From positions 2,542,001 through 2,606,000 of the forward strand of contig NZ_AP025739.1 in NCBI RefSeq assembly GCF_003574315.2: a stretch of 64,000 nt of DNA. Direction: 5' to 3'. The DNA is from Capsulimonas corticalis (GTDB taxonomy: Bacteria > Armatimonadota > Armatimonadia > Armatimonadales > Capsulimonadaceae). Below, piece by piece: positions 16,829 to 18,423 of this stretch. Position numbers and translations under genes: made by a program. Under the pieces are notes generated by a model that saw only the letters and a list, made by a program, of their open reading frames with translations, was not told where the DNA came from and did not search any database. Every line of letters begins with the position of its first letter. Within the stretch, counting starts at the first letter, position 1.

Positions 16829-18370
16829 TCAGGCGCCAATTCCATCCCCGGAACGGGCGATTCCCACGACTTTACCATGAATTTGCAGGGCCGATGGGTC
16901 GGGGACCGGGATGGGCGCAAAGTCGGGATTGGAGGGCAGCAGCGTCACTTCGCCGCCGGGCGAGCGATGGAACCGCTTGACGGTGGCGCGGTCGTCCGCG
17001 AACCATGCGGCCACCAGGTCGCCGCTTTGCGCGCTTTCCTGCCGCCGGAGCAAAATCAGGTCGCCGGGGCGCAGGCCGTCGCCGCTCATGCTCTCGCCGT
17101 CGATCGTCAGCAGGAAGTAACTGTCGCTCGGGTTGAGACCAGCCGCGTCGATGTCATAGTACTCCGTCGGCTCCTCGCCCGTCTCGCGCGGCGGCCCGGC
17201 GGCGATATCGCCGTACATCTGAATACGCCGTGTCTCGAAGCGATGTTCGGCCGTGGCCGGCCCCGTCCGAAACTGGAACACGGGCAGGCGCGCCGGCTCG
17301 GCGATCTCTCGCGCGGGAAGGGGCGCCGGGATCATGGGGGACATCGGCGCCGCGGCTGGCTCGGAAGGAGCGTTCGGGAGCGGCGCGGTTTCCGCGATTC
17401 CGGGAGGAATGTGGCCGCGCGACCCGGTGTAGAGCTGCGCGTTATCGAAGAAGAAGTTCTTGACGAAATCCGAGGAGGCGTTCTGCTGCGTCTCCCACAT
17501 CATATAAAGCTTGGCGCTGAGATCGTCGGCCATATGCACGATCAGCGCTTCGGGAAATCGCGGCGTGACCGGCGCTCCGTAGTCCAGGCGTCCGTGGTGC
17601 GAGAGGATGATGTGCTGGAGGGCGTCGCTCATCTCCTCGGAGATATTGTCCATACGTCCCAGCAGCGCCGCGACCTTGCGATAGCCGAGCATCGTATGGC
17701 CCATCAGATGGCCCTGGCGCGTGTATTGATAGCCGTCGCCGCCCTGCTCCAGCTCGTACACCTTGCCGATATCGTGGAGCAGCGCGCCGGCGATAATCAA
17801 ATCGCGGGAGAGATCGCTGGTGCGCCATCGGACAGCCCCATCCACGATGGAGACGGCGAGGTCGGTCACTTCGAGCGAATGCTGCATCAGTCCGTGGGAG
17901 AAGGCGTGGTGCGCGCTTTTGGCGGCAGGCGAGAGGGCGAACTTCTCCCGGAACGCGCCGCTGAACGTCTTTGTGAGCAGCGCGCGCAGTCCGGGATGCG
18001 TCACCTGACGGATGTAGTCGTCGAGGCGCGCCGAAAGCTGCGCCGCCGGTTCGCAGCGAGCCCAATGGTAGAGCGATTCATCGGCGGGTTTGGCGCAGGG
18101 GCGGAGCCAGTCGGTCAGGTGCAGCTGCCGGGAGCCATTGAACTCGGCGACGCGCCCCCGCGCATAGACATAGGTAAAGTGGCGCACATCGACATGTTCG
18201 GAGAGCGACGGATCCCAGCGCACGGCCGTACATTGACCGGTGTGATCCTGAAGCAGGATCTCCAGGCGGCGCTTTTTGCCGGGAGGCTCGTGCAGCGTGA
18301 ATCCCGCGACGACGAACACATCGTCCACCTCGTCATTGACCTGCAAGCCCTTGGCGAATTGCCGTTTCAT
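16829..18370 (-). CDS. YhaM-like OB-fold/HD protein fused to a LexA-type S24 peptidase domain
   Basis: The start is the ATG at 18370, with GAGGA 6 bases upstream, giving 513 residues. Residues 1-90 look like an OB-fold (VFVVAGFTLHE...LEILLQDHTGQCTAVRWD). Residues about 130-320 are an HD domain (AFSHGLMQHSLEV, LLHDIGKVYEL, ILSHHGRLDYGAP, VHMADDLSAKL) as in YhaM/CBF1 3'-5' exoribonucleases. After a Pro/Ala-rich linker (about 325-375) comes an S24 domain: Ala391-Gly392 in GDIAAGPP, Ser427 in DGESM, Lys465 in ATVKRFH. Spacings of 36 and 38 nearly equal LexA's 35 and 37 (Ala84, Ser119, Lys156). There is no helix-turn-helix. The architecture suggests a nuclease that can cleave itself, perhaps under RecA control; that role is inference. 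Confidence 0.88.
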   Translation of the reverse strand: MKRQFAKGLQVNDEVDDVFVVAGFTLHEPPGKKRRLEILLQDHTGQCTAVRWDPSLSEHVDVRHFTYVYARGRVAEFNGSRQLHLTDWLRPCAKPADESLYHWARCEPAAQLSARLDDYIRQVTHPGLRALLTKTFSGAFREKFALSPAAKSAHHAFSHGLMQHSLEVTDLAVSIVDGAVRWRTSDLSRDLIIAGALLHDIGKVYELEQGGDGYQYTRQGHLMGHTMLGYRKVAALLGRMDNISEEMSDALQHIILSHHGRLDYGAPVTPRFPEALIVHMADDLSAKLYMMWETQQNASSDFVKNFFFDNAQLYTGSRGHIPPGIAETAPLPNAPSEPAAAPMSPMIPAPLPAREIAEPARLPVFQFRTGPATAEHRFETRRIQMYGDIAAGPPRETGEEPTEYYDIDAAGLNPSDSYFLLTIDGESMSGDGLRPGDLILLRRQESAQSGDLVAAWFADDRATVKRFHRSPGGEVTLLPSNPDFAPIPVPDPSALQIHGKVVGIARSGDGIGA

Positions 18371-18388: not shown

Positions 18389-18423
18389 GACCCCGTGATA
18401 TTTTAGTATACTAGCACGGGGTC
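18389..18423 (-). promoter_or_regulatory. Nested palindrome upstream of the HD/S24 gene
   Basis: GACCCCGTG (18389-18397) and CACGGGGTC (18415-18423) are perfect 9-bp arms around 17 AT-rich bases that contain a second palindrome, TAGTATACTA (18404-18413). It ends 19 bases before the start codon, so it may be an operator overlapping the promoter, or a leader hairpin near the ribosome site. Confidence 0.6.

Follow-up and report, generated by a model that had tools for sequence, protein, structure and literature searches.

S24 domains are known to serve as self-cleaving switches in repressors and in UmuD, a polymerase subunit. In Escherichia coli LexA, the cleavage residues are Ala84, Ser119, and Lys156, and the C-terminal domains of LexA dimerize; UmuD, an S24 domain that lacks an HTH, is cut with the help of RecA and is activated by cleavage. 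After autocleavage, LexA-like proteins carry exposed degrons for Clp, Lon, and FtsH, and in IrvR, a LexA-like regulator of Streptococcus mutans, the degron is exposed by self-cleavage that is independent of RecA (PMC7101444). The nuclease YhaM of Bacillus subtilis degrades both single-stranded RNA and single-stranded DNA with Mn, and the active form of S. aureus YhaM is a hexamer, which may be built as a trimer of dimers (PMC11347170).

Here we describe a gene of Capsulimonas corticalis in which a YhaM-type OB-HD part and a LexA-type S24 domain are fused in a single reading frame. The gene was identified in a window of 64,000 nucleotides (the whole stretch of DNA that was analyzed). Among open-licence papers, we found none that describes a protein with the OB-HD-S24 order, in line with the original prediction, which was made from the letters of the window and knew of no such protein.

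An OB-HD-S24 fusion protein

The fusion gene is located on the minus strand (Table 1), and the plus-strand frame across 16829-18370 is a spurious open reading frame. The start Met at position 18370, with GAGGA located 5 nt upstream, is the same as that used in the Capsulimonas relative.

Table 1 Features of the fusion gene and its upstream region, in window coordinates
Feature	Position	Strand	Evidence
OB-HD-S24 coding sequence, 513 aa, stop included	16829..18370	-	Shine-Dalgarno-like GAGGA before Met
Stop codon	16829..16831	-	
OB-fold domain, residues 1-100	18071..18370	-	Pfam PF01336 (0.0073); model strands 14-85
HD phosphohydrolase domain, residues 101-312	17435..18070	-	Pfam HD (3.2e-15); Foldseek YhaM 9h3f
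Pro/Ala-rich linker, partly disordered, residues 313-379	17234..17434	-	pLDDT; low conservation
LexA-type S24 domain, residues 380-507	16850..17233	-	Pfam S24; LexA structures; Foldseek
Predicted scissile bond Ala391-Gly392 in MYGDIAAGPP	17195..17200	-	Ala-Ala-Gly in 9/10 fusions
Ser427, predicted nucleophile (DGESM)	17090..17092	-	Ser in 10/10 fusions
Lys465, predicted general base (ATVKRFH)	16976..16978	-	Lys in 9/10 fusions, Arg in the tenth
Predicted promoter element GCTAGTATACT (-10 TATACT)	18405..18415	-	Consensus resemblance; shared with Capsulimonas relative
Inverted repeat GACCCCGTG-N17-CACGGGGTC with perfect 9-bp arms, overlapping the predicted promoter	18389..18423		One match in the window vs 0.05 expected by chance (up to 3 mismatches)

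The original prediction had read the N-terminal half of the protein as OB-HD of the YhaM type and the C-terminal half as a LexA-type S24 domain, and both assignments are borne out by sequence matches and by the structural model. The NCBIfam YhaM profile (NF010007) matches residues 8-314 (1.4e-39) with 136 bits, below the equivalog cut-off of 460, so that, judging by the sequence, the protein is a divergent YhaM homolog and not an equivalog. The NCBIfam lexA profile (TIGR00498) matches residues 382-507 (4.1e-26) with 92 bits, below its equivalog cut-off of 111, and the match to the Pfam family Peptidase_S24 (2.3e-24) scores 85.8 bits against a cut-off of 23.3. Among the PDB sequences, the matches are YhaM (9h3f, 2.2e-35) and LexA (about 1e-15). 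The Pfam OB family is matched by 6 of the 10 fusions described below. Among the Pfam and NCBIfam matches of the fusion protein, there is no HTH family, and the earlier statement that the protein is not a repressor appears reasonable. The motifs GDIAAGPP, DGESM, and ATVKRFH are present exactly as claimed, as are the spacings, 36 residues from Ala391 to Ser427 and 38 from Ser427 to Lys465.

In the AlphaFold models of the window protein and of the fusion from the distant genome G059 (mean pLDDT 85.3 and 87.6, respectively), the OB-HD and S24 parts are well defined and the linker is poorly defined. In the window protein, the OB strands are modeled with pLDDT of about 90, residues 335-357 of the linker fall below 50, and the cleavage loop is of low confidence (pLDDT 60 for the block 391-400). 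Foldseek searches with both models retrieved YhaM 9h3f first (TMt 0.83 and 0.89), with LexA next; the best LexA matches of the window protein include RecA-bound LexA (8gms_A and 8s7g_A) and the mutant 1jhe_A (TMt 0.88-0.89). In the model, the C-terminal half folds like S24. The OB domain of the G059 protein also resembles ssDNA-binding OB folds. Both models represent monomers in which the relative placement of the domains is uncertain (pTM 0.64 for the window protein and 0.71 for G059).

Spread of the fusion across Armatimonadota

A protein search was followed by a profile search of 291 Armatimonadota genomes, with the homologs coming mostly from draft genomes. The profile search yielded ten single-frame OB-HD-S24 proteins from three families, which extends the architecture well beyond the window, as the original prediction had suggested looking for. 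The fusion is encoded in two Capsulimonas genomes (G000, the window's genome, and G021), three further genomes of the same family (G020, G023, and G024), three of the same order (G017, G018, and G019), and two of a distant family (G058 and G059). The ten fusions score 578-673 bits compared to 303 for the best complete standalone YhaM, a clean gap; outside the genus, their identity to the window protein is only 26-31%. The nearest public relative of the window's genome is a metagenome-assembled genome of Capsulimonas sp. The fusion persists as a single polypeptide in part of Armatimonadota, and we consider this architecture and its conservation virtually certain. Because the same order recurs in one frame in nine other genomes, ten in all, and the window's genome is a single contig of 7.6 Mb, a sequencing join, which had been named as a possible source of the fusion, is excluded, and the homologs refute an assembly or annotation artifact, the probability of which is very small.

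An eleventh fusion candidate, the second YhaM-type gene of G021 (L052, G021:C383, 970-3382), scores 336 bits and is truncated at the first S24 strand by the end of its contig. It starts about 119 bp behind dnaN, the gene for the DNA polymerase III beta subunit, shares 33% identity with the fusion across the aligned region, and may represent either an additional copy or a binning error. No YhaM-type protein other than the fusion was found in the window's genome. In five genomes of the same order (G008, G009, G010, G015, and G016), only S24 matches and no YhaM-type match are listed, and the YhaM-type nuclease seems to be dispensable or replaced there.

Phyla other than Armatimonadota were covered by a shallow scan of 84,980 species with single-sequence patterns, which recovered only the same-genus relative. 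Among viral contigs, phages, and plasmids, there were matches to standalone YhaM or to S24 only, never to both over most of the protein, and a mobile or viral origin was rejected. No clear OB-HD-S24 fusion was detected among viral structures either; one viral structure, A0A1U9WR93, gives an ambiguous alignment over 467 columns, with an rmsd of 28.5 A and 15% identity. The long C-terminal tails of the G061 and G063 proteins, checked for decayed S24 domains, contain only low-complexity sequence.

Conservation of the active sites and evolution of the fusion

The HD residues His154, His164, His199-Asp200, His225, His253, His258, and Asp282 are identical in all ten fusions, the pair His199-Asp200 corresponding to H192-D193 of S. 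aureus YhaM. On the S24 side, the conservation of Ser and Lys, which the original prediction had singled out, was checked across the homologs (Table 1): the full set of Ala-Ala-Gly, Ser, and Lys is intact in nine of the ten fusions, with spacings of 33-36 (Ala-Ser) and 37-40 (Ser-Lys). In the tenth fusion, from G020, the cleavage segment is missing and Lys is replaced by Arg, and the S24 domain of this protein is the longest branch in the S24 tree (2.07). Such joint loss would be expected if Lys and the cleavage segment work together.

Comparison of the two Capsulimonas genomes places the strongest constraint on the S24 domain (92% identity, dN/dS about 0.03), followed by HD (0.13), OB (0.16), and the linker (0.20), which is the least conserved stretch (62.5% identity to the Capsulimonas relative). 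With synonymous divergence of 0.8-1.7, near saturation, these dN/dS values are rough, but the order of amino acid identities is unaffected.

The HD tree separates 40 standalone YhaMs from a group (support 96) that unites the eleven fusions with four proteins lacking S24. Since S24-less members nest in this group, a clade made up of fusions alone is rejected (AU p 0.0017); the fusion label changes four times on this tree, consistent with a single gain followed by three losses. None of the fusions is placed within the same-order LexA groups in the S24 tree, where a clade uniting all fusions is not rejected (p 0.27). The simplest reading of both trees is one old fusion with apparent later losses of S24, although several independent gains are possible. 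Short S24 proteins without HTH that are UmuD-like (VAAGFPSPAED motif) are present in G010 (L182) and G018 (L183).

Promoters and gene neighborhoods

No convincing LexA box was found upstream of the fusion in Capsulimonas. The candidate that looked promising, a CGAAC-like site (CGAACTGATGATCG) at about -108, lies in a coding-readable stretch, and the version in the relative scores at background, so that LexA control through this site appears doubtful. The inverted repeat over the predicted promoter is absent from the Capsulimonas relative. GCTAGTATACTRAA was discarded as a genome-wide operator: it occurs exactly only once, and the reversed-pattern control yielded more near matches. The window's genome encodes RecA and three separate HTH-S24 LexA paralogs (L001, L002, and L003), with CRAAC-N4-GTT-like boxes upstream of L002 and L003, in tandem in L003.

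Most fusion loci lack a clear LexA box. SOS-box-like sites that resemble the lexA promoter of G058 are located beside the -10 element in G058, G059 (two sites), and G018; their single-site scores are matched by 4-12% of random stretches, so that these sites are suggestive only. In the 92%-complete draft of G059, HTH-type LexA was not found, and the fusion is the only S24 match above 40 bits. In G018, a 15.5 kb contig (G018:C167; L041 and L198) carries both recA and the fusion, with a distance of about 5.4 kb, an asparaginyl-tRNA-synthetase-like gene, and a cinA-like gene between them.

Across the fusion loci, there is no conserved DNA-repair neighborhood; the neighbors vary between families and are mostly housekeeping genes. 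In Capsulimonas, the neighbor encodes a GFO/IDH/MocA oxidoreductase; in G023 and G024, the neighbors include RNase III and, in G024, also a poly(A)/CCA-type polymerase; in the family f11, hrcA is found near the fusion in G058 and an HrcA-like ORF in G059. For an anti-phage defense model, only generic HD matches to Cas3, Cas10, and dGTPase were obtained.

A possible self-cleavage switch on a nuclease

The best explanation of the sequence matches and the structural models appears to be a YhaM-type 3'-5' exonuclease, comprising the OB and HD domains, to which a flexible linker attaches a self-cleaving S24 domain of the LexA type. We infer that the bond between Ala391 and Gly392 is cut by the protein's own S24 domain, so that the intact nuclease, residues 1-391, would be detached from the S24 core; self-cleavage as such is highly probable. 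By analogy with LexA, UmuD, and CI, a RecA-ssDNA filament would be the most likely trigger, and on balance, this is probably the case; because the RecA-independent IrvR exists, a RecA trigger cannot be assumed for the fusion. The cut would leave an -IAA or -VAA C-terminus, a potential Clp degron as in LexA-like proteins; Ala-Ala-Gly is generic to S24 domains, however, and adds no independent support for a degron. DNA damage would then remove a 3'-5' single-strand nuclease able to erode the 3' ends that RecA needs. We lean slightly toward such an off-switch because 3' ends would be protected if the nuclease were destroyed as RecA filaments assemble. Nevertheless, the predicted released fragment is a whole YhaM that would be active without S24, so that cleavage need not inactivate the nuclease and an on-switch is nearly as likely. 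For control of the nuclease by RecA-assisted self-cleavage in either direction, we see just short of an even chance.

Several other readings of the fusion have to be weighed against the RecA-assisted switch. Self-cleavage might proceed without RecA, constitutively or under other stress, and set the half-life or the assembly of the nuclease. This is rather unlikely, although IrvR provides a precedent (PMC7101444), the scarcity of clear LexA boxes and of repair genes around the fusions points the same way, and RNase III, the poly(A)/CCA-type polymerase, and hrcA are among the neighbors; conversely, the S24 domain is closer to LexA than to CI or UmuD, the characterized S24 paradigm is RecA-dependent, and the weak SOS-box-like sites adjoin the -10 elements in three genomes. 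With either trigger, an S24 dimer could keep OB-HD locked in an inhibited assembly such that the cut frees YhaM to form an active hexamer, a version of the on-switch that we consider possible but somewhat doubtful. It is favored by the activation of UmuD upon cleavage and by the fact that fragment 1-391 amounts to a complete standalone YhaM plus linker, and an added dimer could disturb the assembly of a YhaM hexamer, but S24 dimers could equally stabilize a trimer of dimers, and monomeric models with uncertain domain placement bear little on assembly.

It is quite improbable that S24 is only a dimerization or docking module in which the protease chemistry is a relic. The remnant in G020 demonstrates that a form without the cleavage segment or Lys can persist; however, its decayed site goes together with fast evolution of the whole domain, some relatives nested in the tree have no S24 domain at all, and elsewhere the site and the dyad have remained intact over deep divergence, in the domain that is the most constrained within the genus. 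Even less probable is a role of the HD part in acting on nucleotides or signaling molecules rather than as a nucleic-acid exonuclease: the chemistry of HD domains varies widely and weak matches to many HD families were obtained, but the full OB-HD length is best matched by YhaM, by profile as well as by structure, all HD ligands are kept, and the OB domain of a distant member resembles those that bind ssDNA.

The RecA-assisted switch would amount to a single-protein, non-transcriptional arm of the SOS response, in which a RecA filament makes the nuclease shed its S24 tail and changes nucleic-acid turnover with no repressor involved; we put this forward tentatively. More generally, DNA damage or other stress may control a nuclease directly by self-cutting, not via a gene repressor. 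Should RecA drive the cleavage, the effect of DNA damage on the nuclease would be direct and irreversible, and a single mutation, S427A, would uncouple the nuclease arm from the other parts of the SOS response. Natural controls are available in close relatives, which have a standalone YhaM or, in one case, a decayed S24 domain.

Comparison with known systems

In the fusion, an S24 domain sits on a degradative enzyme, and its active site is conserved over deep divergence. With YhaM/CBF1 (NF010007; structures 9h3f and 9o7t), the fusion shares the OB and HD domains over residues 8-314, the HD ligands, and the fold (TMt 0.83-0.89), but YhaM stops after the HD part, whereas the fusion continues with the linker and S24. 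IrvR, the LexA-like regulator, is a DNA-binding repressor and not an enzyme. UmuD carries only a short N-terminal arm where the fusion carries a nuclease domain. The S24 domain of the fusion matches LexA better than CI or UmuD: with the LexA C-terminal domain (PF00717), it shares the Ala-Gly site, the Ser-Lys dyad, spacing within one residue of that in E. coli LexA, and the fold (TMt up to 0.89), but LexA has an N-terminal winged HTH, whereas in the fusion, which has no HTH, the N-terminal partner is the nuclease.
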